Assembly (NCBI RefSeq): GCF_013376455.1
Contig: NZ_CP045504.1
Span: 2,315,001-2,379,000 of the forward strand
DNA length: 64,000 nt
Source of the DNA: Desulfolutivibrio sulfodismutans DSM 3696
Lineage (GTDB): Bacteria; Desulfobacterota; Desulfovibrionia; Desulfovibrionales; Desulfovibrionaceae
Direction: 5' to 3'
Shown: positions 2,371 through 59,325 of the stretch, piece after piece
Position numbering within the stretch: position 1 is the first letter of the stretch
Layout of the letters: each line of letters starts with the position of its first letter
Notes under the pieces: generated by a model
Database searches by the model: none
What the model saw: the letters and a program-made list of their open reading frames with translations, nothing else
Told to the model about the DNA's origin: nothing
Program-made: the position numbers and the translations under genes

Positions 2371-3873
2371 ATGACCGACAAACCCATCCTGGTGACCGGC
2401 GCCACCGGCTATGTAGGCGGACGCCTGGTTCCCAAGCTCCTGGACGCCGGACGCCGGGTGCGGGCCGTGGGCCGCTCCCTGGACAAGCTGGGGGCCAGGC
2501 CGTGGGCCTTCCATCCCGGGGTGGAGCTCGTGGCCGCCGACCTGTTCGACCTGGCGTCCACCCGGGCGGCGCTTCGCGGCTGCGACACGGCCTATTACCT
2601 GGTGCACTCCATGCGCCCCGGCAAGCACGACTTCGCCGCCGCCGACCGCCATGCCGCCCTGATCATGGCCCGGGCCGCCCGGGAAGAGGGGCTCTCGCGC
2701 ATCATCTACCTGGGGGGACTGGGCGAAGAACGCGAAGACTTGAGCCACCACCTCAAATCCCGCCACGAGGTGGCGCTGATCCTGTCCCACGGCGGCGTCC
2801 CCCTGACCCACCTGCGGGCGGCCATGATCCTGGGCTCGGGCAGCGCCTCCTTCGAACTTCTGCGCTACCTGGGCGACCGCCTGCCGGTCATGCTCACCCC
2901 GGCCTGGGTACGCACCCGCTGCCAGCCCATCGCCATCACCAACGTCCTGGGCTACCTCATGGGCTGCCTGGACGAGCCCCGCACCCAGGGCCGCACCTTC
3001 GACATCGGCGGCCCGGACGTGCTCTCCTACCAGGATCTCTTCCGCATCTACGCCGAGGAGGCGGGGTTGCCGCGCCGCCTGATCATCCCCGTGCCGGTCA
3101 TGACCCCCCGGCTCTCGGGCTACTGGGCGCAACTGGTCACCCCCATCCCGGCCTCCCTGGTCATCCCCCTGGTGGAGGGCCTGCGCAACGAGGTCATCTG
3201 CCAGGACCACGCCATCCGGGACATCATCCCCCAGAATCTGCGCACCTGCCGGGAGACCATCGCCCGGGCCTTGGAAAAAATCCGCCAGAACACGGTGGAG
3301 ACCTGCTGCACCGACGCCGGGTGCGTCGCGCCGCCCGAATGGCTGGCCGTGGGCGACGCCCCCTATGCCGGGGGCACGGTGCTTGAGTGCGGCTACCGGG
3401 CGCGCATCGCCTCGGAACCGGCCGACCTGTGGCGCGCCCTGGCCAAGATCGGCGGGGAAACCGGCTGGTATTACGGCGACATGCTGTGGCGGCTGCGGGG
3501 ATTTCTGGACAAGCTGTTCGGCGGGGTGGGCCTGCGCCGGATGCGCATTTCTCCGGACAACCTGCGGGTGGGCGACCCCTTGGACTTCTGGCGCATCCTG
3601 ACCGTGGAGAAGAACCATCGTCTGATCCTTCTGGCCGAAATGAAGCTTCCCGGCGAGGCGCTTTTGGAATTCCAACTGCTGCGCGTGGGCGACAACCAGA
3701 CCGAACTCACGGCCCATTCCCGGTTCCTGCCCCGGGGCCTGGGCGGGCTTCTCTACTGGTACGCCACCTATCCCCTGCACCAGCTCGTCTTCTCGGGGAT
3801 GCTCTCGGGGTTGGCCCATGCCGCCGGAAAGCCCCTGCTGGGACGTCCCGAACGCTTCACCCCGCTGCGCTGA
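2371..3873 (+). CDS. NAD(P)-binding SDR/YbjT-like protein with C-terminal DUF2867
   Basis: 500 residues. The N-terminal Rossmann fold starts at once with the dinucleotide-binding signature VTGATGYVGGRLV, followed by LVAADLFD and an active-site-like region YYLVHSM; this is an extended, atypical SDR (NmrA/YbjT type). After about residue 330 a DUF2867-like domain follows (ETGWYYGDMLWRLRGFLDKL, later LPGEALLEF), a lipocalin-like fold that often trails such SDRs. The substrate is not known. The start has GGAGG 6 bases upstream. It is a single gene with no obvious operon partner. Confidence 0.8.
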   Translation: MTDKPILVTGATGYVGGRLVPKLLDAGRRVRAVGRSLDKLGARPWAFHPGVELVAADLFDLASTRAALRGCDTAYYLVHSMRPGKHDFAAADRHAALIMARAAREEGLSRIIYLGGLGEEREDLSHHLKSRHEVALILSHGGVPLTHLRAAMILGSGSASFELLRYLGDRLPVMLTPAWVRTRCQPIAITNVLGYLMGCLDEPRTQGRTFDIGGPDVLSYQDLFRIYAEEAGLPRRLIIPVPVMTPRLSGYWAQLVTPIPASLVIPLVEGLRNEVICQDHAIRDIIPQNLRTCRETIARALEKIRQNTVETCCTDAGCVAPPEWLAVGDAPYAGGTVLECGYRARIASEPADLWRALAKIGGETGWYYGDMLWRLRGFLDKLFGGVGLRRMRISPDNLRVGDPLDFWRILTVEKNHRLILLAEMKLPGEALLEFQLLRVGDNQTELTAHSRFLPRGLGGLLYWYATYPLHQLVFSGMLSGLAHAAGKPLLGRPERFTPLR

Positions 3874-4670: not shown

Positions 4671-4710
4671 ACGCCGAAAGACCGCCAGGGAGCGGTCTTT
4701 CGGCGTTTTT
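4671..4710 (+). terminator. Rho-independent terminator after the pilin gene
   Basis: A perfect 15-base stem ACGCCGAAAGACCGC / GCGGTCTTTCGGCGT with a 6-base loop and a T5 tail. Its last bases abut the stop of the opposing lipoprotein gene. Confidence 0.85.
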
Positions 4711-4853
4711 CAATGGTTCCGGTGCGAGGTCTGCATCCGTTTGAGGATCTCGGCCTGTTTCGAACCAGGGGAATGGGCCCCGGCGCACCCGAGCATCCCC
4801 GCCACAAAGACCACCGCCAGACTCAACGCCACGATGCGCTTCCAGGGCTTCAT
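4710..4853 (-). CDS. Very small lipoprotein (47 aa)
   Basis: MKPWKRIVALSLAVVFVAG is a typical lipoprotein signal, followed by the lipobox MLGC with Cys at residue 21. The mature peptide is only about 27 residues and is polar and basic. AGGAGG is 7 bases upstream of the ATG. The size and layout are like entericidin-type lipoproteins, but I cannot claim that family. It converges with the pilin gene. Confidence 0.6.
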   Translation of the reverse strand: MKPWKRIVALSLAVVFVAGMLGCAGAHSPGSKQAEILKRMQTSHRNH

Positions 4854-4991
4854 TCCGAATCCTCCTGGGAAACGCCCCGCCGCCTTAAGGATATGAATGC
4901 GGCGCAGGGTGCATTTCCGCCCGTTTTGCCAGCCATACGACATCGCGGCTTTCTTTTCCAGCCTTCTGCCCGCACACCCCGCGCCGCCAGC

Positions 4992-6005
4992 CTAGCGTTT
5001 CCGGCCGGCCACGATGAGGCCGCCGCCCAGGGGAGCGACGGGCTCCTCCACCACGAAGTCCCCGAGCCCCTGGCGGGACATGGCCCCCTCAATCGTCTCC
5101 AGGGGTAAAAAATGCGTGGGATACCCGGCCAGCCGCGTCAAAAGCTCCTGCCCGGCCTCGCTTACCGCATCGCGGCCTCCGGGCGCGAAATGGTGCGACA
5201 CCATCCAGCCCCCGGGCCGAAGCGCCGTCGCCACCGTGCCCACGCTGCGCTCCAGATCCTCGGCCACCCCGTAGAGCACATGCGAGGCCAGGGCCAGGTC
5301 GAAGATGTCCTTGCCCATGGCGTCCGTGCGCAGGTCGAAGGAGACGGCCGTCGCCCGATCCCCGTAGCCGCGCGCCCGGCAACGGGCCTCGGACAAGGGG
5401 GCCACATGGGGCAGATCGAAGATCGTCCCGGTCAGGTTCGGGTTGGCGTCCAGAAGGGCCATGGTGAAATCGCCGTGGTTGCCGCCCACGTCAGCCATGG
5501 TGCGCATGGCCGCAAAGCCCGGCAGCCCCGAAACCAGCCGGATCACCCGCACGAGCGCCCCGCTGCGGGTGTGCGCCGCCGTGCCCTCCATGACATCCTC
5601 CATGGCCCAGGCGGCATCGGCCTCGTGCCGCGACCCGTCCTTTTGACGCAGGGCCGTCAGCAGATCCGCTTCCAGGGGGGCGAAAAAGTGCATGTTCAGG
5701 GCCATGGCCCGGCCCTGAAACAAGGGACGCCCGGGCGCCAGATATTCCGCCGCCGCTGGCGAATTGGCGTATCCCGCGGCTGTTTTTTCCAGAACGCCCC
5801 GGGCGGCCAGCAGGTCGAGCAGGGCCCCCAGGCGATCCGGCAGCGTGCCGGTGGCCGCCGCCAGCTCCCCGGCGGACTTTTCGCCCTGGGCCAACTGGCC
5901 GAAGATGTCCAGGTCTAAAGCGGCCATAAGCCCCTTGGCGAGGGTGGAGGCGTACAAGATCGATTCGATGGGTTCAAACGAGGTGGTGGGTTGCGTAATA
6001 TCCAT
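4992..6005 (-). CDS. SAM-dependent O-methyltransferase (Methyltransf_2 type)
   Basis: 337 residues. An N-terminal winged-helix dimerisation region (IFGQLAQGEKSAGELAAATG, then LLDLLAARGVLEK) is followed by a class I SAM-binding fold with motif I ADVGGNHGDFTMAL near residue 165 and FDLPHVAP for the second acidic contact. This is the plan of acetylserotonin/hydroxyindole-type O-methyltransferases, which methylate small aromatic hydroxyls; the substrate here is unknown. The start has AGGAGA upstream. It lies 57 bases downstream of a MarR gene with the same palindrome in front of both genes, so it is the likely target of that regulator. Confidence 0.8.
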   Translation of the reverse strand: MDITQPTTSFEPIESILYASTLAKGLMAALDLDIFGQLAQGEKSAGELAAATGTLPDRLGALLDLLAARGVLEKTAAGYANSPAAAEYLAPGRPLFQGRAMALNMHFFAPLEADLLTALRQKDGSRHEADAAWAMEDVMEGTAAHTRSGALVRVIRLVSGLPGFAAMRTMADVGGNHGDFTMALLDANPNLTGTIFDLPHVAPLSEARCRARGYGDRATAVSFDLRTDAMGKDIFDLALASHVLYGVAEDLERSVGTVATALRPGGWMVSHHFAPGGRDAVSEAGQELLTRLAGYPTHFLPLETIEGAMSRQGLGDFVVEEPVAPLGGGLIVAGRKR

Positions 6006-6028
6006 GCGCGTCTCCTGTTGGTCACACT

Positions 6029-6043
6029 GTTTAGCCGCTAAAC
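6029..6043. promoter_or_regulatory. MarR-type operator, copy 1 (before the methyltransferase)
   Basis: A perfect inverted repeat GTTTAG-CCG-CTAAAC, 24 bases upstream of the methyltransferase start. The same arms with a different centre occur before the MarR gene and in the scar at 11.5 kb, which makes binding by the neighbouring MarR likely. Confidence 0.7.
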
Positions 6044-6062
6044 CCAACGGGCAAAAAAGGGG

Positions 6063-6512
6063 CTATTCGGGGTAGGCCTCCATCCAGGCCTTCATGCGGC
6101 GACACATCTCCTGGCACACGGCGAAATCCCGATCCGGAAGGCCGCGCAGATAGTCGAGAAAATCCTTGTCGTGGGCCTTGTGAAATTCGAAATGGGCCTG
6201 GCTGACCGCTTTCCCCAATGGGGTCAGGACCACCCGGCCCCGGGGTTCGTCCGGCTCCCGGGCGACCAGGCCCTTGGCGGCCAGGCGCTTGACCATCTGG
6301 GACACCGCCCCCTTGGTGACCCCGCAGGAGGAGGCAAGCCCGGTCACGCCCGCCCCGCCGGAAAGTTCCAAAGCAGAGAGCATGTGCACCTCGGCGGGAT
6401 ACAGGGTCACGTCCAGGCCGAAGTCCACGGGCCGACGCTCAATGCGGGCGAACTTGGTCAGCACCGCGCCAAGGGTCAGAAACAGGGGGGTGACGTCGTC
6501 GAAGTCGCGCAT
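6063..6512 (-). CDS. MarR family transcriptional regulator
   Basis: 149 residues with a MarR winged helix: recognition helix region SSCGVTKGAVSQMVKRLAAKGLV at about residues 62-84 and the wing EPDEPRGRVVLTPLG. Flanking helices would form the dimer interface. The gene runs in the same direction as the methyltransferase downstream. Identical palindromic arms before both genes indicate autoregulation plus control of the methyltransferase. Members of this family usually lose DNA binding when a small aromatic ligand is bound; the ligand here is unknown. Confidence 0.85.
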   Translation of the reverse strand: MRDFDDVTPLFLTLGAVLTKFARIERRPVDFGLDVTLYPAEVHMLSALELSGGAGVTGLASSCGVTKGAVSQMVKRLAAKGLVAREPDEPRGRVVLTPLGKAVSQAHFEFHKAHDKDFLDYLRGLPDRDFAVCQEMCRRMKAWMEAYPE

Positions 6513-6519
6513 GGAAAAT

Positions 6520-6534
6520 GTTTAGCTACTAAAC
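6520..6534. promoter_or_regulatory. MarR-type operator, copy 2 (before the MarR gene)
   Basis: A perfect inverted repeat GTTTAG-CTA-CTAAAC ending 8 bases before the MarR start codon, placed to block transcription or translation initiation of its own gene. Confidence 0.75.
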
Positions 6535-6654
6535 AATGGGGCGTCAAGCGGCGGCTCCCTCACGGCCGGAAAATCCAGGCCGCTCAGAAGGCAACCCGGG
6601 CTGCAGGCCGCCTGGGGCGCAGACTTGGGCTTGTGTTTTTTTGAATGCTGCGTA

Positions 6655-6670
6655 GTATGTTGTAATACAT
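6655..6670. promoter_or_regulatory. Likely autoregulatory operator of the toxin-antitoxin pair
   Basis: GTATGTTGTAATACAT contains the inverted arms GTAT/ATAC and ATGT/ACAT, 15-30 bases before the antitoxin start. Ribbon-helix-helix antitoxins normally bind such palindromes with their toxin. A TTGAAT at 6641 could be the -35 box. Confidence 0.45.
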
Positions 6671-6684
6671 CGTAAGGAGAGGCC

Positions 6685-6927
6685 ATGCAGACGACCATGT
6701 CCCTGCGGCTGTCGGAGGAGTTGGCCGCCAAGCTCGGAGAGCTGGCCCAGGCCATGGGAAGAACCAAGAGTTTTGTGGCCGTGCGGGCGCTTGAGGATTT
6801 TGTAGCCCGGGAGGCGTGGCAGGTGGCGGAAATCCAGCAAGGCATCCGCGAGGCCGAGGCCGGAGATTTCGCCACGGACGAGGACATGCGGGCCTTGGAG
6901 GCGAAGTGGAGCCCCGGTGCGCGTTAG
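6685..6927 (+). CDS. CopG/RHH-type antitoxin
   Basis: 80 residues. The N-terminal ribbon-helix-helix (MQTTMSLRLSEELAAKLGEL, then a turn and SFVAVRALEDFVARE) would bind DNA as a dimer. The acidic C-terminal tail (QGIREAEAGDFATDEDMRAL) is the usual toxin-wrapping segment of ParD/RelB-like antitoxins. AAGGAGAGG precedes the ATG. Its stop overlaps the toxin start by 11 bases, giving coupled translation. Confidence 0.85.
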   Translation: MQTTMSLRLSEELAAKLGELAQAMGRTKSFVAVRALEDFVAREAWQVAEIQQGIREAEAGDFATDEDMRALEAKWSPGAR

Positions 6928-7201
6928 GTGGCTGCGGGCCGCCCGGCGCAATCTCGATGCGGAGTTGGACTATATCGCCCGGGAAGACCGGGATGCGGCG
7001 AGAACGCTGTATGCCCATATCATGGACCGCGTCGCGCTCCTTGGGAAGCATCCCCAGGCGGGACGGCCCGGCCGGGTATTCGGAACCCGGGAACTGGTCA
7101 TCGATCACTATCCCTATATCCTGCCCTACCGTGTGAGCGGGGACTGCGTCGAGATCCTGCGCGTCTTTCACACCAGGCGCAGGCCGCCCGAAGGCTGGTG
7201 A
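6917..7201 (+). CDS. RelE/ParE family toxin
   Basis: 94 residues starting at a GTG inside the antitoxin gene. The pattern is typical of ParE/RelE: RWLRAARRNLDAELDYIARED, then RVALLGKHPQAGRPGRVFGTRELVI and YPYILPYRV followed by EILRVFHTRRRPPEGW. ParE-like members poison gyrase and RelE-like ones cut mRNA on ribosomes. The C-terminal FHTRR..P sits where catalytic or binding residues occur in both, so the target cannot be settled from sequence. Confidence 0.85.
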   Translation: MRVRWLRAARRNLDAELDYIAREDRDAARTLYAHIMDRVALLGKHPQAGRPGRVFGTRELVIDHYPYILPYRVSGDCVEILRVFHTRRRPPEGW

Positions 7202-9962: not shown

Positions 9963-11225
9963 GAGACCGCTGCACAATCCTCTGATGTCGTTACGGAATT
10001 CTCTCGAAAGGTCTCGGTCGTCTGTTTCCGCCGTCGTTTAGCCGACAGCGCTGATCTTGTTTCACCTTGAGGCGGCGTTCGTCACTCCTTAGCGTAAGTG
10101 TTCCTCAACATCCCGCTTTGAGCACCGCTTTTTTCAAGTTGAAAGCCATAGCGTTGAGTAAAAATTCAAGTTCAACCTTGGCTACCCCCAGGTAACGCGT
10201 CCGGAAGAAGCCATAACTTCTTTTGAGCGTTCCGAAAGCCCGTTCCACCTTCGACCGGACGCTGCTAACTTGACGATTTGCCGCTTTTTCGGCGGGGTTC
10301 AGCGCACGGTTGCGAGCGGCCTTATGCATGATGCCGTCGGCAAGTCTCCGAGCTTGGAGCACATGCCTGTTCAACTGGCTGCTGTATCCCTTGTCCGCAT
10401 AGATGCGGCCCCCTGGCATGGGGCCAATCTCATCAAGAATATCCACGAATTCCTGCGTATCCGAACGGTTGGCGGGCGTGACATGGCCGCCGAGGAGAAA
10501 GCCGTCCCGGCTGTCCGTGGCCGCATGGACTTTGTAGCCGTAATAAGCCCGGTTCCCTTTGCGCAACCAGGCCGCATCGGCGTCATCGGAGTAGCTGATG
10601 GTTACGTCCGACGCCTCGTCGTCATCTTCCTCGCGATCTTCGGGAAGAATATCGATTACTTTGAGGGGGCGGCGCGAGGAGGTGATGACGCTCGCGTCCA
10701 CGATGGCTCCTTCACGTACCAGTAAGCCGCGCCGCTGGAGTTGATGGTTGAGTTTGTCCAGAAGCCGCTTCAAGACGTTTTTTTCAAGCAGGCTCTGCCG
10801 AAACCGGCAAATGGTCGAGGAATCGGGCACCTCGTCATGATCAAGGGAAAGGCCCACGAATCGGACAAAGGACAACCGATCGTACAAGCATTCCTCCACC
10901 GCCGCGTCGCTCAGGTTGTACCACCTCTGGAGCAGAAGGATTTTAAACATCGGCAACGGTGCATATGCAGGATTACCAACGGCATTGACGACTCGGCTGA
11001 GCTTTTTTCGAAGAAGCTTCTCAAACGGCTTCCAATCAATGAGGCGATCAATCTCATCCAGAAAGCATTCCTTGTGCCTGCGATGGGACACGACGTAGTC
11101 GGCAATACCGGGCTTATTGGAATTGCGCTCGCTCATGATCGCCTCCATTATTTTTGATGGAGAAAATATAGCATAATTGCCTAAAATTACAATAGAATTG
11201 TGCCATTTTTCCGTGCAACGGTCTC
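9963..11225. mobile_element. Complete IS5-family insertion sequence
   Basis: A 1263-bp element. Left end GAGACCGCTGCAC and right end (read inward) GAGACCGTTGCAC match at 12 of 13 bases. The element is flanked on both sides by the pentamer AATAT, a likely target duplication. It carries one intact transposase on the minus strand and no passenger genes. The intact ends and frame suggest a recent insertion. Confidence 0.85.
10105..11148 (-). CDS. IS5 family DDE transposase
   Basis: 347 residues. The N-terminal domain (IDWKPFEKLLRKKL, then YAPLPMFKILLLQRWYNLSD) is the IS5 DNA-binding region. The catalytic triad is visible as D in GAIVDASVI, D in GRIYADKGYSS and E in SKVERAFGTLKRSYGF; spacing and the Y(2)R(3)E(6)K-like context fit the IS5 group. 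GNRAYYGYKVH precedes the second Asp as usual. The frame is uninterrupted. The alternative start M5 (MSERNSN) is equally plausible. Confidence 0.92.
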   Translation of the reverse strand: MEAIMSERNSNKPGIADYVVSHRRHKECFLDEIDRLIDWKPFEKLLRKKLSRVVNAVGNPAYAPLPMFKILLLQRWYNLSDAAVEECLYDRLSFVRFVGLSLDHDEVPDSSTICRFRQSLLEKNVLKRLLDKLNHQLQRRGLLVREGAIVDASVITSSRRPLKVIDILPEDREEDDDEASDVTISYSDDADAAWLRKGNRAYYGYKVHAATDSRDGFLLGGHVTPANRSDTQEFVDILDEIGPMPGGRIYADKGYSSQLNRHVLQARRLADGIMHKAARNRALNPAEKAANRQVSSVRSKVERAFGTLKRSYGFFRTRYLGVAKVELEFLLNAMAFNLKKAVLKAGC

Positions 11226-51282: not shown

Positions 51283-51301
51283 GAGAATGGAAATCATTAT
51301 T
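51283..51301. promoter_or_regulatory. Fur box upstream of the ferrosome-like cluster
   Basis: GAGAATGGAAATCATTATT matches the 19-base Fur consensus GATAATGATAATCATTATC at 15 positions. It lies about 110 bases before the first ATPase start, in the otherwise gene-free 51033-51410 interval, so the cluster is probably repressed by iron-loaded Fur. Confidence 0.7.
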
Positions 51302-51410: not shown

Positions 51411-53645
51411 ATGCACGCCACCGCCACCCTTCGCATCACCCACGCCCTGCCCGGACGTCTGCGCCTGAGACTGCGCCCGGCATCGCTTCTGTCCACAGCC
51501 GCCTCCGCCTGCGCCGACATCCCGGGCGTTCTCGACACCCGCAGCAACCCGGCCTGCGCCTGCCTGGTGGTGCGTTACGACCCGGCCCAAACGGCCCAGG
51601 AGGCCGTCCTGGCCGCCGTGCGGGCCGTCCTGCCCGCGCCGAAACGTCCGTTGCGGGCCGTAGACGCGGCCCCAACCCTCCCGGCCTGCGCCTGCGCCTG
51701 CCCGGAGAAAAAAACCTCCGGCGTGGGCCGCCAATTGGTGCGTTTTTTGTCCCTGACCGGGGTCATGAGCTACGTCTTCGTCAAGGAGGTGCTGCTCAAG
51801 GCCGCCGTGGCCCAGACCCTGATCTCCCCCCTGGGGCTTACGGCCCTGATCGCGGCCGCGCCGCTTCTGCGCGAGTCGGTGCGCCACGCCCGGCAAAAAC
51901 GCTTCACCATGGAGGGCTTTCTGGCCGCCGGGTGCGTGGCTGCGGCCGCCGCCGGACAGGCGGTCACGGCCCTGGAGATTTTGTGGATCCACAGCGGCGC
52001 GGAGACCCTCAAGGCCTACATCGCCGAGCGTTCCCGGCGCTCCATCTCGGCCATTTTGGATCTCACGGCCAAAAACACCTTCATCCTGGCCGGAGAGGTG
52101 GAGGTGGAGGTGCCGGTGTCGGCGGTCAAGCCGCGCGACATCGTGGTCCTGCACACGGGCGAAAAGATCTCCGTGGACGGGCTGGTGGTCTCGGGCGAGG
52201 CCCTGGTGGACGAATCCCCCATCACCGGCCGGGCCGAACCCGAACACCGCGTGGCGGGCGACAAGGTGTTCGCCGGGGCCTACGTGCGCCAGGGCATCCT
52301 CCATGTCCGGGCCGAGTGCGTGGGCGACGCCACCTATCTGGCCCGAATCATGCGCCTGGTGGAAGACTCCCTGGAAAACAAGGCCGACATCGAGTCCACG
52401 GCCGACGACCTGGCCCGCCGACTCTTGAAAATCGGCATGTGGTCCACCCTGGGCACCCTGGTCGTGACCGGCAGCCTGTGGCGGGCCTTCACCGTGCTTC
52501 TGGTCATGGCCTGCCCCTGCGCCACGGTGCTGTCGGCCTCGACCGCCGTCAGCAGCGCCCTGGCCGCAGCGGCCAAACGCGGCATCCTCATCAAGGGCGG
52601 CCGCTACCTGGAGGAGGTCGGCAAGGCCGAGGTGGTCTGCTTCGACAAGACCGGCACCCTGACCACCAACCAGCCGCGCATCGAGGAGATCCTGAACTTC
52701 TCCGACCTCTCCGAGGACGAGCTTTTGCTGTGGGCCTATTCGGCGGAAATGCACAACCACCACCCCCTGGCCCTGGCCATCAGACACGAGGCGGTCTCCC
52801 GGGGCATCGACCCCCTGTCGCACATCGAATGCGACTTCACCCTGGGCAAAGGGGTCAAGGCCTTAATCGGCCACGACGTGATCCGCCTGGGCAACGCCCG
52901 CTACATCGACGAGGCGGGCATCATGACGGACCAGGTGCAGGCCCGGGTCCGGCCCCTTTCCGACCGGGGCCTGACGGTCATCTACCTGGCCAAAAACGAC
53001 GCGGTGCTGGCCGCCTTGGGGTTCGCCAACGAACTTCGGCCCGACGCGGAAACGACCGTGGCCGAGCTTACCCGCACCGGCGTCTCCCAGGTGGCCCTGG
53101 TCACCGGGGACACGGAGAACACCGCCCTCACCCTGTGCCGGACGCTTCACATCGACCTGTGCCGCCACAGCGTCCTGCCCGAGCAGAAGGCGGACATCGT
53201 GCGCGAACTGCAGGACGGCGGCCGCCGGGTGATCATGGTCGGCGACGGCATCAACGACGCCCTGGCCCTGGCCGAGGCCGACATCGGCATCGCCATGAGC
53301 GCCGGGGGCTCGGACGTGGCCATCGAGGCCGCGGACATCGCGTTGGTGAAAGACGATCTGGCCGACATCCTCTACGTGCGGGACTTAAGCCGCCAGACCC
53401 TGCGCGTGGCCCGCCAGAACTTCTGGATCGCCACCTCCACCAACCTGGGCGGGGCCCTGGCCGGGGCCCTGGGGCTTTTGTCGCCGGTGGCCGCCGGGCT
53501 CATCCATATCGTGCACACCCTGGGGGTTTTGGCCAATTCCTCCCGGCTTCTGGCCCATCGCCCGCCCACCCTGGCGGTGGCGGCCGATCCGGCCGCGGCG
53601 ACACCGGCCACGACGGATGACCTCCTCGTGCGTTCGAAGCAATAA
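51411..53645 (+). CDS. P1B-type ATPase with CPC motif and N-terminal HMA-like domain
   Basis: 744 residues. An N-terminal ferredoxin-like HMA domain carries THALPGRLRLRL (the P-G-R-x-R signature) but lacks the CxxC metal site; the linker has a CACACP cluster (about 91-97). Membrane helices follow, with the transport motif MACPCATVLS (CPC), phosphorylation site D412 (FDKTGTLTTN), HP motif HNHHPLAL and hinge MVGDGINDALAL. These mark a P1B transition-metal ATPase. First gene of the fez-like cluster, behind the Fur box. Substrate probably iron or another divalent metal by context; CPC alone would also fit Cu or Zn/Cd. Confidence 0.88.
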   Translation: MHATATLRITHALPGRLRLRLRPASLLSTAASACADIPGVLDTRSNPACACLVVRYDPAQTAQEAVLAAVRAVLPAPKRPLRAVDAAPTLPACACACPEKKTSGVGRQLVRFLSLTGVMSYVFVKEVLLKAAVAQTLISPLGLTALIAAAPLLRESVRHARQKRFTMEGFLAAGCVAAAAAGQAVTALEILWIHSGAETLKAYIAERSRRSISAILDLTAKNTFILAGEVEVEVPVSAVKPRDIVVLHTGEKISVDGLVVSGEALVDESPITGRAEPEHRVAGDKVFAGAYVRQGILHVRAECVGDATYLARIMRLVEDSLENKADIESTADDLARRLLKIGMWSTLGTLVVTGSLWRAFTVLLVMACPCATVLSASTAVSSALAAAAKRGILIKGGRYLEEVGKAEVVCFDKTGTLTTNQPRIEEILNFSDLSEDELLLWAYSAEMHNHHPLALAIRHEAVSRGIDPLSHIECDFTLGKGVKALIGHDVIRLGNARYIDEAGIMTDQVQARVRPLSDRGLTVIYLAKNDAVLAALGFANELRPDAETTVAELTRTGVSQVALVTGDTENTALTLCRTLHIDLCRHSVLPEQKADIVRELQDGGRRVIMVGDGINDALALAEADIGIAMSAGGSDVAIEAADIALVKDDLADILYVRDLSRQTLRVARQNFWIATSTNLGGALAGALGLLSPVAAGLIHIVHTLGVLANSSRLLAHRPPTLAVAADPAAATPATTDDLLVRSKQ

Positions 53646-53761: not shown

Positions 53762-54079
53762 ATGAATATCCAAGAGATGTTGGAACTGCGCCGGTTCATC
53801 ACCGTGGCGCATCATGTGCCCGGACGCATCCGGCTCAAACTCGACCCGGCCGTCCGGTCCCACCCCAAGGCCATGGCCCTGGCGGCCCTGGCCGACAAGG
53901 GCAACGGCGCGTTTCGCGCCCGGCTCAACGTTCTGGCCCGGTCCCTGGTCCTGGAATACGACCCGGACCGCATTGACCCCAGGCTCGTGGAGGGCGTTTT
54001 CACCGAGGACGATCCGCAGGAAGCGGCGGCCTTGGCGGACGAGCTGTCTGCGGCCTTCGGCCTGACACCCAACGCGTAG
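53762..54079 (+). CDS. Small HMA-like protein of the fez-like cluster
   Basis: 105 residues, a single ferredoxin-like domain. It has TVAHHVPGRIRLKLDPAV (the same P-G-R-x-R signature as the preceding ATPase's N-terminus), then strands AFRARLNVLARSLVLEYDPD and a C-terminal helix. No CxxC site. Soluble, no signal. Proteins of this HMA_2-like type often accompany P1B ATPases; it may dock to them or to the compartment membrane. No strong ribosome site. Confidence 0.75.
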   Translation: MNIQEMLELRRFITVAHHVPGRIRLKLDPAVRSHPKAMALAALADKGNGAFRARLNVLARSLVLEYDPDRIDPRLVEGVFTEDDPQEAAALADELSAAFGLTPNA

Positions 54080-54091
54080 AGGAGATCGAGA

Positions 54092-55336
54092 ATGGAAAAC
54101 ACACCGTATCAGGAAGGGTTCGTCCCGGCCTACGCCGCCTCCGGCATGCCCATGCCCGCAGGCGTCCAGGCCGGATACGCCCCCGGGGCGGAGCAAGGCG
54201 GCGGCGAGGCCGGTTATGCCGGTTACGGCAGTCCAGCCGCCCCCATGGGTCCGCTTGGAGCACCGATGGAAGGCCAGACCATGACTGCGGCCGTCGCCGA
54301 GCCCTGCGCCGAATCCGGCGCCACGACTGACGAGGGCCAAAACAAGTACCAGTACATGGGCCAAAAACCGGCCCAGAGCCCTGTCCAGAAGGCGGCCACA
54401 CCTGCCCCCGAGGCCCCTCAGGGTTACGCCGCCCAGGGCCCCGGCGGCTATGCGGCCCAAGGCCCCAGCGGCTACGCCAAGGGATATTTCCAGCCTGCCC
54501 CGGGCCAGCCCGAGGCTCCAAAACCCCAGGCTGCGACGATCGCGCCGGTCGGGCATGTCTGCTCCTGCGGCGACCATGAGGCCCCGCAGGCCCCGGGCAA
54601 ACCCGAGGCCGTCCCCGGGGCGCAGTACGCTGCGCCGCAAGGACCGCAGTACGCCACCCAGCAGGGCGCACAGTATGCCGCCCCCCAAGGACCGCAGTAC
54701 GCCGCTCCGCAGGGACCGCAGTATGCGCCCCAGTACGGTCAGCAGTACGCCGCTCCCCAAGGCCCCCAGTATGCGCCGCAGTTCGGCGCACAGTACGCCG
54801 CTCCCCAGGGACCGCAGTACGCCGCCCAGCCGGGCGCGCAATACGGCCAGCAGTACGCCACCCCTCAGGGACCGCAATATGCCGCCCCACAGGGACCGCA
54901 GTATGCCCCCCAGCCGGGCGCGCAATACGCCCCCGGGCCGGAGGCCGCCGCGTCCCACGAGCATGAAGAGGGCGAGGACAAAAAGAGCCATTGCCACGGC
55001 CATGGCGGACACGAGCAACAGGAGCAGCAGGCCCAGCCCGGCTTTTTCGGCTTTCCCGGCTTCGGCGGGTTCTCCGGCGCGGCCGGTTCTCCCAGCGAAG
55101 ACCCCAAGCACCTGGAATACCGCTACGGGCAGATGATCGAGTTGTGCAACGACATCATGCAGGGCAAGGCCGATCCTTCCAAGATCGCCGCCTTTTTGAC
55201 CTCCACCGGGGCCCATTTCTGGAAAGGGGCCGTGGTGGGCGCGGCCGTGACGTTTCTTCTCACCAACAGCGCCGTGAAGTCCGCCCTGGGCGACACCTTC
55301 TCGGCCGTCTTCGGCGCGGCCAAGGGCGGCGAATAG
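54092..55336 (+). CDS. Tyr/Pro/Gln-rich repeat protein with membrane-anchor tail
   Basis: 414 residues. The N-terminal ~200 are Gly/Pro/Ala/Tyr-rich. From about 180 to 285 tandem copies of the octad YAAPQGPQ and variants (YAPQFGAQ, YAPQPGAQ) occur. A His-rich stretch follows (SHEHEEGEDKKSHCHGHGGH) and an earlier CSCGDH, both likely metal-binding. A Phe/Gly segment (FFGFPGFGGFSG) and helix lead to one membrane segment (KGAVVGAAVTFLLTNSAVKS) near the C-terminus, a motif shared with the protein at 55946. It is probably disordered, membrane-tethered and scaffold-like. GAGGAG lies upstream. Confidence 0.75.
   Translation: MENTPYQEGFVPAYAASGMPMPAGVQAGYAPGAEQGGGEAGYAGYGSPAAPMGPLGAPMEGQTMTAAVAEPCAESGATTDEGQNKYQYMGQKPAQSPVQKAATPAPEAPQGYAAQGPGGYAAQGPSGYAKGYFQPAPGQPEAPKPQAATIAPVGHVCSCGDHEAPQAPGKPEAVPGAQYAAPQGPQYATQQGAQYAAPQGPQYAAPQGPQYAPQYGQQYAAPQGPQYAPQFGAQYAAPQGPQYAAQPGAQYGQQYATPQGPQYAAPQGPQYAPQPGAQYAPGPEAAASHEHEEGEDKKSHCHGHGGHEQQEQQAQPGFFGFPGFGGFSGAAGSPSEDPKHLEYRYGQMIELCNDIMQGKADPSKIAAFLTSTGAHFWKGAVVGAAVTFLLTNSAVKSALGDTFSAVFGAAKGGE
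54622..54945 (+). repeat. In-frame tandem repeats of about 24 bp
   Basis: Imperfect units, each encoding eight residues of the YAAPQGPQ type, about 11-13 copies. Synonymous variation between copies shows selection on protein rather than DNA. Confidence 0.8.
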
Positions 55337-55407: not shown

Positions 55408-55824
55408 ATGCATATCCAGCAGAAAGAACAAACCTATCCCCTGCGTCAGACCGCCCTGCCCGTGGGCGCCATCACCGCCATGGGCGCGGCCGGGGCCATC
55501 ATCGGCGGCACGGCGGCCGCCGCCAAGGATCTGCGCCAGGTCAAATCCGGCGACATGACCCGCGAGGCCGCCGCCGGACACATCCTCAAAGAGGCCCTGG
55601 GCAGCGGTCTGGCCACCGCCGCCGGGGCCGTGGCCGGAACGTTTTTCCGCTCGAACATCCTGGGCCTGGCGGCCATGGCCGTGGTGGGCGTGGGCGCCAA
55701 GTACCTCTACGACGGCGTGGCCGGATTGGCCGCCGAAAAGGCCAAGTCGGCCGTCAAGAGCGCGGCCAAGACCGTAACCAAGGCCGCCGCCAAAACGGAG
55801 ACCGCAAAACCGGCCAAGGCGTAG
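55408..55824 (+). CDS. MamC/Mms13-like membrane protein
   Basis: 138 residues. Two hydrophobic segments (about 17-39 and 63-100) flank a polar loop (about 40-62, KDLRQVKSGDMTREAAAGH). The order GG-x-AAA-AK, then T-EAA, then K-E-x-x-G-x-GLATA-x-x-AVA, then V-G-AKY-x-x-D closely follows the magnetosome protein MamC (Mms13) as I remember it, where the loop contacts magnetite. The tail (about 108-138) is Lys/Ala-rich, histone H1-like. In this cluster it likely sits in the ferrosome membrane. AAAGGAA lies upstream. Alignment is from memory. Confidence 0.7.
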   Translation: MHIQQKEQTYPLRQTALPVGAITAMGAAGAIIGGTAAAAKDLRQVKSGDMTREAAAGHILKEALGSGLATAAGAVAGTFFRSNILGLAAMAVVGVGAKYLYDGVAGLAAEKAKSAVKSAAKTVTKAAAKTETAKPAKA

Positions 55825-55945: not shown

Positions 55946-56242
55946 ATGTCCCATACCCCGAAATATCCCCCTGACGGCGGATATCCCACAGCGACAGGAT
56001 ATCCGGCTGCCGGCTCCCTCACCCAGGGCTGGTTCGCCGTCTCCGATCCCGGCTACATCAAGGGCGCCCTGCTCGGCGCGGGCCTGACCTACATCCTGAC
56101 CAACCAGAAGGTGCAGCGGGCCCTGGTCAAGGGCGTGGTGACCGTCTGGACGGCGGTCCAGGGCGGCATCGAAGAGGTCAAGGAACAAATCCACGATGTG
56201 AAAGCCGAAATGAGCATGAAAGGCGATGCGGACAAAACCTGA
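55946..56242 (+). CDS. Small single-pass membrane protein (YtxH-like)
   Basis: 98 residues. A Tyr/Pro/Gly-rich head (YPPDGGYPTATGYP), then SDPGYIKGALLGAGLTYILT as a membrane segment with the K-G-A-x-x-G-A motif shared with the repeat protein at 54092, then an amphipathic helix (VWTAVQGGIEEVKEQIHDVK). The layout is YtxH-like. AAAGGAG precedes the ATG. Overlaps the next gene by 17 bases. Probably a structural membrane component of the compartment. Confidence 0.7.
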   Translation: MSHTPKYPPDGGYPTATGYPAAGSLTQGWFAVSDPGYIKGALLGAGLTYILTNQKVQRALVKGVVTVWTAVQGGIEEVKEQIHDVKAEMSMKGDADKT

Positions 56243-56456
56243 AAACATACGCGCCAAGCGTGAACTGGCCAAGGTCGGCATGGCCGTCTCCCTGGGCACG
56301 CTTCTGGCCACGGGCTTCATGGAACGCATGGGCGGCCAGTCCGGACAGGCGGTGCGCAATGTGCATCTGGCCTCCGGACTGGCGCTTGTGGGCTTTTCCT
56401 ACTGGCATTGGAGCCTGTACCAACGCAGCACCGATTGCCGGGGACATCGCGCATGA
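56226..56456 (+). CDS. Small two-helix membrane protein with a heme-like His pair
   Basis: 76 residues. Basic N-terminus (RTKPENIRAKRELAK), TM1 (VGMAVSLGTLLATGFM), loop MGGQSGQAVRN, TM2 starting VHLASGLALVGFSYWHW. His47 and His61 are 14 residues apart on one helix, the type of spacing found in b-heme membrane proteins such as DUF4405. It could help electron transfer or iron handling at the compartment membrane. Its stop overlaps the FezB-like start (ATGA). Confidence 0.65.
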   Translation: MRTKPENIRAKRELAKVGMAVSLGTLLATGFMERMGGQSGQAVRNVHLASGLALVGFSYWHWSLYQRSTDCRGHRA

Positions 56457-58612
56457 CAAAAACTCCCGAACGCATTGCCGTCGGGACGGACGTGGGCCGC
56501 TTCCGGGCGGCCCACGTCCTGCCCCGCCGGGTCCGGTTCACCTCCCCGATTTTTGACGATCCCGGATTTGACGGCGCCTATTTCCAGGCCCTGGTGGAGG
56601 CCGTGCCCGGGGTGGACGAGGCCCGGGTCAATGTCCGGGGCAGGGCCCTGGTGGTGGCCCATGACGGCCGGGCCGACACCTGGGACCGCCTGGCCGCACG
56701 CCTGCGGGACATCCCGGCCGAGGCCTGGCGCGGCGGACGTCCGGCCGAGTCGCGCATGACCCTGGGCGACGTGGGGTCCAAGGCCCTCATGACCCTGGCC
56801 GCCGGAACCCTGACTTATCCGGCCAGGGCCGCCGTGGGCTGGGCCCTGGGACTGCCGACCATCGCCGAGGGGGTCCACGCCCTGCTCACCCGGGGGCTCA
56901 AGGTCGAGGTGCTGGACGGGGCGGCCATCGCCCTGTCGCTATTGCGCGGCCATTATTTCACGGCCGGGGCCATCACCACGCTTCTGGCCCTGGGCCGCTA
57001 CCTCGAAGACAGCACGGAAAAACGCTCCACGGCCCTGCTCAAAGGGCTTTTGCGCCCCCAGGCCGAGACCCTGTGGGTGGTGCGGGGCGGCGTGGAGAGC
57101 GAGATTCCGGCCGCAAAGGTCCAGGTGGGCGACGTGGTGGTCTGCGGGGCCGGGGAGCTCGTCCCCATCGACGGGGTGGTGTCCGAAGGCGAGGCCTCGG
57201 TCAACCAGAGCTCCATCTCCGGCGAGTCCGTGCCCGTGCATAAAAAACCCGGCGACGAGGTCATCTCCGGTTCCGTGGTCGAGGAGGGGCGGCTGCTCAT
57301 CGCCGTGGACCGGGTGGGCTCCGAGACCTCCCTGGCCCGCATCAGCCGGTTCATCGAGCAGTCGCTACGCAGCAAGTCCAAAACCCAGACCAAGAGTTCC
57401 GAACTGGCCGACAAGCTGGTTCCCCTGACCCTGTCCCTGGCCGGGATCAAGCTTTTGACCTCCCGGGACATGAACCAGGCGGCCTCGGTGCTTACCGTGG
57501 ATTTCTCCTGCGCCGTCAAGCTGGCCAGCCCCGTGGCTGTGCGCTCGGGCATGTACGCCGCAGGCAAGGCCGGGGTGCTCTTAAAGGGCGCTTCCGCCCT
57601 GGACGCCCTCTACGACGTGGACACCATCGTTTTTGACAAGACCGGCACCCTGACCACGGGCGACATCGCGGTCACGGACCTGTTCCCCGCAAACGGCCTG
57701 ACCCCGGAGGAGCTTTTATGCCTGGCGGCCGGGGCCGAGGAGCATTACGACCATCCCGTGGCCCGGGCCGTGGTGCGCGAGGCCAAGGCCAGGAATCTTC
57801 CCCTGCCGCCGATCAGCCGGGTGGACTTCATCGTGGCCCACGGCGTGTCGGCGGCCATCGACGGCCAAAACGTGCTTGTCGGCAGCCATCATTTCATCGC
57901 CGAGGACGAGGGCGTGCCTTGCCAGGACATGGACGACACGGCCCATGCCCTGCGCAGCCAGGGTAAGTCGCTTTTGTACGTGGCCCGGGAGGGAAGCCTC
58001 GTGGGCTTGATCGCGCTTCGCGACGACCCCCGGCCCGAGGCCGGGGCGGTGCTTGACGCGCTCAAGGCCGCAGGCATCAGCCGGGTGGTGGTCTTGACCG
58101 GCGATCACCGGGAGACGGCCAACGCCCTGGCCCGGCAACTGCCCCAGATCGACGAGGTCCATTTCGAACTCAAGCCCGAGGACAAGGCGGCCATGGTGGC
58201 CAAGCTCAAGGAATCGGGCCGCACCCTGGCCTACGTGGGCGACGGGGTCAACGACGCGCCCGCGCTTATGACCGCGCATGTGGGCATCTGCATGCCGAAA
58301 GGGGCGGATCTGGCCCGGGAGGCGGCCCAGGTGCTGCTTTTGAGCGAGAGCCTCTTCGCCCTGCCCGTGGCCAAGGAAGCGGCCATGCGCACCAACACCA
58401 TCGTCAAGCGCTGCTTTTATTCCACCATCGGGCTCAATTCGCTGATTCTGCTTCTGGCCGGATCGGGCCTTTCCCCCCTGGCTTCGGCGCTCTTGCATAA
58501 CGTCAGCACCGTGGGCATCCTGGGCTATGCGGCCGCAGCCGCCGGGCGTCCGCTTTCCGGCGCGAAACGGGCGGAGCTTTCGAGTCATTCCACCGAGGAG
58601 GCGGCATGTTGA
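56453..58612 (+). CDS. fezB: P1B-6-like ATPase, candidate FezB
   Basis: 719 residues. The N-terminal HMA-like domain has an Arg-rich HVLPRRVRF in place of a metal site. Core: TSS-type actuator SGESVPVHKKPGD, transmembrane motif SCAVKLASP instead of CPC, phosphorylation site D395 (FDKTGTLTTG), HP in YDHPVARAV, hinge YVGDGVNDAPAL. SCA in this helix is, as I recall, the P1B-6 class mark, and FezB of Desulfovibrio magneticus is a P1B-6 ATPase needed for ferrosomes. Predicted to pump iron into the compartment. ATG 56453 is preferred over an upstream TTG at 56408. Confidence 0.85.
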   Translation: MTKTPERIAVGTDVGRFRAAHVLPRRVRFTSPIFDDPGFDGAYFQALVEAVPGVDEARVNVRGRALVVAHDGRADTWDRLAARLRDIPAEAWRGGRPAESRMTLGDVGSKALMTLAAGTLTYPARAAVGWALGLPTIAEGVHALLTRGLKVEVLDGAAIALSLLRGHYFTAGAITTLLALGRYLEDSTEKRSTALLKGLLRPQAETLWVVRGGVESEIPAAKVQVGDVVVCGAGELVPIDGVVSEGEASVNQSSISGESVPVHKKPGDEVISGSVVEEGRLLIAVDRVGSETSLARISRFIEQSLRSKSKTQTKSSELADKLVPLTLSLAGIKLLTSRDMNQAASVLTVDFSCAVKLASPVAVRSGMYAAGKAGVLLKGASALDALYDVDTIVFDKTGTLTTGDIAVTDLFPANGLTPEELLCLAAGAEEHYDHPVARAVVREAKARNLPLPPISRVDFIVAHGVSAAIDGQNVLVGSHHFIAEDEGVPCQDMDDTAHALRSQGKSLLYVAREGSLVGLIALRDDPRPEAGAVLDALKAAGISRVVVLTGDHRETANALARQLPQIDEVHFELKPEDKAAMVAKLKESGRTLAYVGDGVNDAPALMTAHVGICMPKGADLAREAAQVLLLSESLFALPVAKEAAMRTNTIVKRCFYSTIGLNSLILLLAGSGLSPLASALLHNVSTVGILGYAAAAAGRPLSGAKRAELSSHSTEEAAC

Positions 58613-59325
58613 CCCCCCTGACCAAGGCCCCATTGGGGATTTCCATGGCCGTTTATAAAGTCGTGGGCCGGGGTTTCGGCGAACGCATGGCCCGTTTGGG
58701 AGTGTTCGTGGGCACCACGCTCACCCGCCTGGGCGACGCCGTGAGCGTTTCGCCGGTCAAGGTGCGCGGCCCCGCGGGCGAGGCGGTGTTGAGCGGTTCC
58801 TGGGCGGCCAAGATGGTGGTGCACCTGGACGATGACCGCCGCCTGCCGCTTCTGGAATGTTCCCCGGGCGAGACCGGCCATGTGGAGGGCATCATCGGCC
58901 AGGACCGGGTCGCCGAGTCCATGGCGGCGTTGGGGCTGCGGGAAAACGACCGCATCACCTTCGTGCGCCGCCTGCCGCCCATGGCCTACAACGCCCTGGC
59001 GGACGGCAAGTCCCGGGTGCGCCTGGGCGAGGGCATGGCCTCCAAGCTTTTGGGGCAAACCCCAAGCGGGCTGGTCCAGTTTTGCGGGGTGGGCGTGGGC
59101 GAGGAGTTCACGGTCACGGAGATCCTGGCCGGGGAAAACGCCCGGCAGACCTTCGAGTCCCTGGGCATCCGCCCCGGCACGCGGCTTGTCCTGCAAAACG
59201 TCACCGCCGGACAGGTCATGCGCCTGGCGAGGCACAATCCCGTGGTCTGCGCCACCAGCGACGGGCTGCGCCTGTATTTTCAGGAAAAAGACGCCGACCG
59301 GATCATGGTCGCGCCCCGGGAGTAG
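58606..59325 (+). CDS. Tandem FeoA-domain protein
   Basis: 239 residues. After a basic, amphipathic N-terminus (about 1-80), two SH3-like FeoA domains follow: PLLECSPGETGHVEGIIGQD with LGLRENDRITFVRR, and FTVTEILAGENARQTFESLG with IRPGTRLVLQN. FeoA modules modulate ferrous-iron transporters or act as metal-sensing folds. It overlaps the FezB-like stop by 7 bases, so it is part of the same transcript. No FeoB is in the window; partner likely the ATPase. Confidence 0.8.
   Translation: MLTPLTKAPLGISMAVYKVVGRGFGERMARLGVFVGTTLTRLGDAVSVSPVKVRGPAGEAVLSGSWAAKMVVHLDDDRRLPLLECSPGETGHVEGIIGQDRVAESMAALGLRENDRITFVRRLPPMAYNALADGKSRVRLGEGMASKLLGQTPSGLVQFCGVGVGEEFTVTEILAGENARQTFESLGIRPGTRLVLQNVTAGQVMRLARHNPVVCATSDGLRLYFQEKDADRIMVAPRE

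Follow-up and report, generated by a model that had tools for sequence, protein, structure and literature searches.

The 64,000-nucleotide stretch of DNA analysed here (the window), from Desulfolutivibrio sulfodismutans DSM 3696, carries on its forward strand eight genes that, judged from the genes themselves, look like a fez-type (ferrosome) operon around a gene for a MamC-like protein. The first gene of this putative operon (51411-53645) encodes a heavy-metal P-type ATPase with a CPC motif and a weak N-terminal HMA-like segment (TIGR01525, E 5.8e-143; Pfam E1-E2_ATPase, E 2.1e-36; Pfam HMA_2, E 0.0024, below cut-off); its reading frame is open from a TTG at 51300, and an ATG lies at 51411. 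It is followed by a small HMA_2-like protein (53762-54079; Pfam HMA_2, E 2.9e-6, 27.8 bits against a cut-off of 30) and by a protein whose sequence is a Gln/Tyr/Pro-rich repeat with a His-rich stretch (54092-55336) and whose gene contains 24-base tandem repeats inside 54621-54934. The MamC-like gene (55408-55824) comes next, and then the genes for a FezA-like small membrane protein (55946-56242; YIKGALLGAGLTYILTNxxVQ), named from gene order and not from a match, for a FezC-like (DUF4405-like) small protein, possibly a haem protein (56226-56456), for a FezB-like heavy-metal P-type ATPase in which SCAVK replaces CPC (56453-58612; TIGR01525, E 8.5e-145, matched from a TTG at 56408, with an ATG at 56453), and for a FeoA-domain protein (58606-59325; Pfam FeoA, E 1.7e-17, three stretches).

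The last four genes overlap by 17 (56226-56242), 4 (56453-56456) and 7 bases (58606-58612), so a single operon is likely. The operon thus contains two distinct heavy-metal P-type ATPases, with CPC and SCAVK, respectively, in the metal-binding helix; both are kept in the neighbourhoods of relatives, and some relatives' operons carry a third such ATPase. The C-terminus of the repeat protein, kept in most of these neighbourhoods, has a hydrophobic segment (FWKGAxxGAxxxxLLTNxxVK) that resembles the one in the FezA-like protein, and this Gln/Tyr/Pro/Ala-rich protein is a possible ferrosome scaffold or coat. A preliminary description of the window had placed the MamC-like gene inside an iron-storage organelle cluster, and the neighbouring fez-type genes bear this out. 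It had also set the FezB-like ATPase beside that gene; the two do belong to one operon, but two small genes separate them. At the locus itself the neighbours are fez-type, and no magnetosome gene cluster is present around 55408-55824.

The ferrosome fez operons that Grant 2022 is said to have described in Desulfovibrio magneticus, Rhodopseudomonas palustris and Shewanella putrefaciens likewise bring together a FezB-like P-type ATPase, a FezC-like DUF4405 protein and a small membrane protein; the present operon differs from them in its eight genes, its second, CPC-type ATPase and its FeoA-domain protein. In the published passages covered, FezC is a DUF4405-like haem protein or cytochrome of ferrosomes and FezB the putative ferrous iron transporter of the ferrosome (PMC10979944), descriptions that the products of 56226-56456 and 56453-58612 fit. 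The FezC assignment is weak, with a Pfam DUF4405 match at E 0.047, below cut-off; among the counterparts in other operons, the Arcobacter protein reaches E 0.0079 (also below cut-off) and another E 0.14.

The gene at 55408-55824 encodes a membrane protein of 138 amino acids; its ATG is preceded by AAGGA, ending 8 nt before the start, and it is single copy in its own genome (4.44 Mb, two contigs). The reading frame and the motifs named in the preliminary description (GGTAAAAK, TREAA, GLATAAGAVA and AKY) are real and stand in the order claimed. The NCBIfam model for MamC (NF038051) matches the protein with E 3.1e-13 and 49.8 bits, residues 22-103 aligning with model positions 9-91 of 97. The curated cut-off of this equivalog model is 100 bits, of which the protein reaches half, and it is therefore not a MamC equivalog; true MamC (Magnetospirillum Mms13, in a reference sequence identical to database records) scores 146.7 bits. 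Direct BLASTP comparison with MamC alone gave a weak match (25 bits, E 2e-4, 41% over 64 residues).

Homology to MamC/Mms13, the central claim of the preliminary description, is nevertheless firm. A scan of genome contigs returned 33 loci, of which 30 were MamC-type (L091-L120; by record title from Magnetospirillum and kin, Magnetococcales, and Gamma- and Zetaproteobacteria) and three Desulfovibrio-type (L121-L123), L122 and L123 with fez genes and L121 on a 7.9-kb contig without them. HHalign comparison of 28 fez-side sequences, taken from 55 fez-side ORFs and including one without a fez cluster (L083), with 19 MamC-type sequences selected from the 30 loci gave a probability of 99.5% and E 7.2e-23 over 102 columns with 31% identity, so that the homology spans the whole membrane core. 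Through these loci 17 genomes were reached, 15 of them by MamC-type and 2 by Desulfovibrio-type loci, and the fez-side profile (A3) matched in every one.

Among 8608 ORFs screened from the window and 48 further regions (L032-L071 and L083-L090; 49 regions in all), a two-sequence profile of the 55408-55824 protein and MamC picked out 55 at E<1e-5; three more profile rounds each returned 55 ORFs, the next ORF in the last round standing at E 0.29. A fez-type profile without any MamC, whose relatives had originally been gathered with a profile that included it, scored Magnetospirillum MamC at 76 bits (E 8e-20 at Z=1e6), against 11 bits for the best of 2000 shuffled MamC copies. The shuffles, the stable set of 55 ORFs and the gap to E 0.29 rule out a match limited to generic Ala/Gly helices. 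Taken together with the fez-type neighbourhood, the homology supports a shared origin of MamC and the fez-cluster protein, as had been proposed.

Structure prediction agrees with this relationship. AlphaFold2 models show three long helices in identical order in both proteins, at residues 19-46, 52-77 and 84-130 of the 55408-55824 protein (mean pLDDT 73.9, pTM 0.46) and at 13-37, 43-69 and 75-123, with a short additional N-terminal helix, in MamC (pLDDT 65.9, pTM 0.43); the confidence of both models is moderate. The predicted layout of hydrophobic helices on either side of a short, charged, helical loop is present in the alignment and, at that moderate confidence, in the model, with three rather than two long helices in either protein. 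Searches of solved structures gave no match by sequence and, by fold, eight Foldseek matches, none at E<=0.001; among the proteins of the family that were tried, no Pfam model scored above its cut-off.

In the source organism's family, the MamC-like and FezA-like genes co-occur near-perfectly, and the FezC-like and FezB-like genes share their location. In one draw of 199 genomes, used for both lists, the MamC-like protein was found in 40 and the FezA-like protein in 39: both occur in 38 genomes, the MamC-like alone in two (G014, G181), the FezA-like alone in one (G055) and neither in 158. The cluster reaches the contig end in G014 and G181, and in G055 the contig stops 140 bases past the FezA-like gene, at the expected start of a MamC-like gene. 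A survey of the 48 further regions around MamC-like genes likewise showed that the gene recurs in fez clusters, with another fez-operon gene detected by tblastn in 46. The exceptions are L044, an extra copy in G014 whose 7.9-kb contig carries no other fez gene, and L083, where only a 22-residue match was found and where the MamC-like gene (2743-3150) lies, without a fez cluster, downstream of a DUF2325 gene. Paired MamC-like genes, 6.4-6.7 kb apart, occur in five genomes (G048, G054, G192, G197, G198).

Across the phylum, NF038051 matched at E<=1e-4 in 12 of 345 genomes, from eight families, and in none of 14 control genomes; no genome among the 345 exceeded the 100-bit cut-off. Beyond it, profile A3 matched three of 385 alphaproteobacterial genomes, namely the sample centre's own MamC, a doubtful match (E 5.8e-5) in a 938-codon frame, and G547 (L131). 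The last has a six-gene fez-like cluster of HMA, MamC-like, FezA-like, FezB-like, HMA and weakly DUF4405-like genes, the DUF4405-like one on the opposite strand; R. palustris, in the source passage covered, has six fez genes (RPA2333-2338; PMC12016538). Matches were found in three of 321 gammaproteobacterial genomes, two of which carry two MamC-type genes each. The third (G1147, L137) encodes a protein of 99 amino acids without a fez gene nearby; on its contig this MamC-type gene (10021-10320) has no visible magnetosome or fez genes around it.

A tblastn search of 72,556 plasmid records with the FezA-like protein gave three matches, on Cereibacter azotoformans pORIO2 and on two Arcobacter plasmids (p133). 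In all three, as in the alphaproteobacterium, the gene directly upstream of the FezA-like gene is MamC-like; the plasmid copies, annotated as 'hypothetical protein', match the fez-type profile with E 1.2e-13 (Arcobacter) and E 7.8e-7 (Cereibacter) in a small ORF set. A FezC-like Arcobacter protein reaches E 4e-4 in this same set, which puts the Cereibacter value near noise and makes it the weakest link. NF038051 gives E 9.4e-7 for the Arcobacter member, E 0.33 for the alphaproteobacterial one and no match for Cereibacter. The plasmid operons resemble that of the window in that their MamC-like gene immediately precedes the FezA-like gene and the ATPase gene, and differ in having one ATPase and divergent MamC-like proteins. 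The Arcobacter fez-like operon (L140) also holds a weak DUF2202/rubrerythrin-like gene (5232-7180, E 0.002) and is adjoined by a DUF2325 gene (4701-5033), as is the L083 copy.

Conserved positions were compared in 63 unique fez-side and 28 unique MamC-type sequences, numbered after the 124-residue MamC. Positions most common to both sets include Gly20 (97% fez-side, 100% MamC-type), Gly24 (90 and 100%), Glu53 (89 and 100%), Gly58 (83 and 100%), Lys90 (86 and 100%) and Asp94 (73 and 100%). The 55408-55824 protein shares with MamC/Mms13 the aligned membrane core, a GxxxGG first helix, a charged loop of about 22 residues, Lys52-Glu53 followed by a GLATA segment, a KYxxD motif and the three predicted helices in order. 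It differs in its model score (49.8 against a cut-off of 100), in its fez-type instead of mam neighbours, in its loop and in its C-terminal tail, which is basic where that of MamC is acidic.

The difference in the loop concerns Glu45 and Asp49, which by our own count we take to be Glu66 and Asp70 of the literature numbering. Both are missing from the 55408-55824 protein, which has Ala and His at these positions and a Glu one residue earlier; only 27 of 66 fez-type relatives (24 of the 63 unique sequences) have an acid at each of the two. Of the 30 MamC-type loci, 29 have Asp and one has Glu at position 49. In MamC this pair is credited, in the passages covered, with iron contact and magnetite templating (PMC6584501, PMC7604359), and the suggestion that the present protein has a magnetite-binding loop is thus not supported. 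As for the tail, the stretch past the last helix carries a net positive charge in 43 of the 63 fez-side sequences, a net negative one in 11 and no net charge in the others; in the MamC-type set it is net negative in all 28 (rank test p 6e-13, a value that overstates the significance because the sequences are related). At least eight Lys occur in this stretch in 21 of the 63 fez-side and none of the 28 MamC-type sequences; many fez-side copies carry long Lys/Ala/Pro tails resembling histone H1 (for example L045, 5748-6371).

Magnetosomes and ferrosomes are two membrane-bound bacterial iron organelles. The sequence relationship suggests that they share a building block; a review describes the two, in the passages covered, as independent, separate entities (PMC9160268). 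No statement on MamC-like proteins in fez operons was found in the ferrosome and MamC literature covered, which does not extend to the original papers (Grant 2022, Pi 2023); in papers naming both ferrosome and MamC the matching passages covered drew no link between the two.

The reading that we favour, and hold to be reasonably probable, is that the 55408-55824 protein, as a MamC homologue and a regular fez-operon component, organises the ferrosome membrane and shares a common iron-organelle ancestor with MamC. Embedded in the ferrosome membrane, the protein would form a helical hairpin of the glycine-zipper kind, packed through its glycine face; its short charged helix would face the lumen of the organelle, and its basic tail, rich in Lys and Ala, would lie in the cytosol. 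Its packing partners would be further copies of itself as well as the FezA-like and FezB-like proteins, and it may help to organise the membrane around the iron core as well as core growth. The common ancestor would have been a membrane protein of an iron-accumulating organelle, and MamC the branch that became established in magnetosomes, marked by an Asp49 that hardly varies and by an acidic tail. Since the branches share the helix glycines and helix-end charges best, and not the loop acids, the ancestral task was probably the organisation of a vesicle membrane around iron; mineral templating would be a later refinement of MamC. Counting against this reading are the weak FezC assignment, the score at half the NF038051 cut-off, the moderate confidence of the structural models, the MamC-like gene outside any fez cluster at L083, the missing acidic pair, and the weak or absent NCBIfam matches of the alphaproteobacterial and Cereibacter members.

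A purely architectural protein, which shapes or clusters the ferrosome membrane and never touches mineral, is a less likely possibility that still carries appreciable weight. Such a protein might form a glycine-zipper oligomer whose basic tail binds acidic lipid, polyphosphate or the nucleoid. The best-shared positions, being helix glycines and Glu53, Lys90 and Asp94 near helix ends rather than loop acids, fit this well, as does the mostly positive charge of the stretch after the helices in fez-type proteins. However, loop length and charged residues are kept in the 55408-55824 protein, MamC and six other rows, and both MamC and its loop are reported, in the passages covered, to affect magnetite in vitro, one MamC loop construct on a designed scaffold having had no such effect (PMC6584501, PMC7604359).

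It is improbable that the protein is instead an accessory subunit of the FezB-like P-type ATPase, tuning iron transport and forming no part of the organelle core. One of the operon's ATPases is indeed present in 45 of the 48 MamC-like regions, and the genes downstream overlap tightly, but the fetched stretch around 29 of the 30 MamC-type loci gave no match to fez-operon queries besides MamC, the sole exception being L095, where a gene for a general heavy-metal ATPase (32% identity) lies at a distance of 4 kb. Moreover, in several genomes of genus g8 (for example L051 and L053) the MamC-like gene lies upstream of the CPC-type ATPase gene, on the same strand and away from the FezB-like gene. Very improbable is a function just like that of MamC, with the acidic loop pair as template for crystalline magnetite: the homology and layout would agree with it, as would the 27 of 66 fez-type proteins in which the two residues are acidic, but the 55408-55824 protein has Ala/His there, and the passages covered (PMC9160268) describe ferrosomes as distinct from magnetosomes and as granules rich in Fe that sometimes contain phosphorus. 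An accidental resemblance between membrane helices rich in Ala and Gly, which the composition, the BLASTP score of the pair alone and the matches that NF038051 has at E<=10 in eight of the 14 control genomes might suggest, has a negligible probability and was rejected, being contradicted by the profile-profile result, the shuffles, the background of 8608 ORFs and the clean control genomes at E<=1e-4.

As to the direction of evolution, we read MamC as having evolved from, or beside, a ferrosome-type organiser protein. In a tree of 99 rows and 109 columns, unrooted, with long branches and with a bootstrap that had not settled, a branch supported at 100/99 sets apart all 30 MamC-type loci, together with three additional gammaproteobacterial rows (L132, L137, L138). 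When drawn from the midpoint, the MamC side falls among Desulfobacterota-type fez proteins, and six rows lie outside (91/85), namely L131 and L139, which are alphaproteobacterial, and four that belong to other families of the source organism's phylum; a grouping of MamC with alphaproteobacterial fez copies was not rejected (p-AU 0.343). The direction from fez to MamC is thus favoured only by the wider spread of fez-type proteins. We tentatively propose, with somewhat more doubt than belief, that MamC is a former ferrosome protein captured by a magnetosome gene cluster of Pseudomonadota and re-tuned from amorphous iron stores to the shaping of magnetite, the nearly constant loop Asp and the acidic tail being possible marks of this re-tuning. 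If this is true, the magnetosome derives in part from ferrosome components. The shared protein makes such borrowing from an iron-storage organelle directly testable, with defined common and branch-specific residues available for comparing MamC and fez-type proteins, and fez-operon genes now annotated as 'hypothetical' gain a family and a hypothesis.

The magnetosome side is itself varied. Seven MamC-type loci (L104, L111, L113, L114, L115, L119, L120), some of them on short contigs, have no other gene common to at least three of the remaining MamC-type loci, an antisense frame in L115 having been set aside; thus not every MamC-type gene lies in a visible magnetosome cluster. At L114 the gammaproteobacterial gene (10001-10360) stands beside genes that by eye look CRISPR-type, with no visible magnetosome or fez genes. 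Paramagnetospirillum kuznetsovii has a second MamC locus (L103, 10001-11719) with a DUF2202 gene close by (E 3.9e-55).
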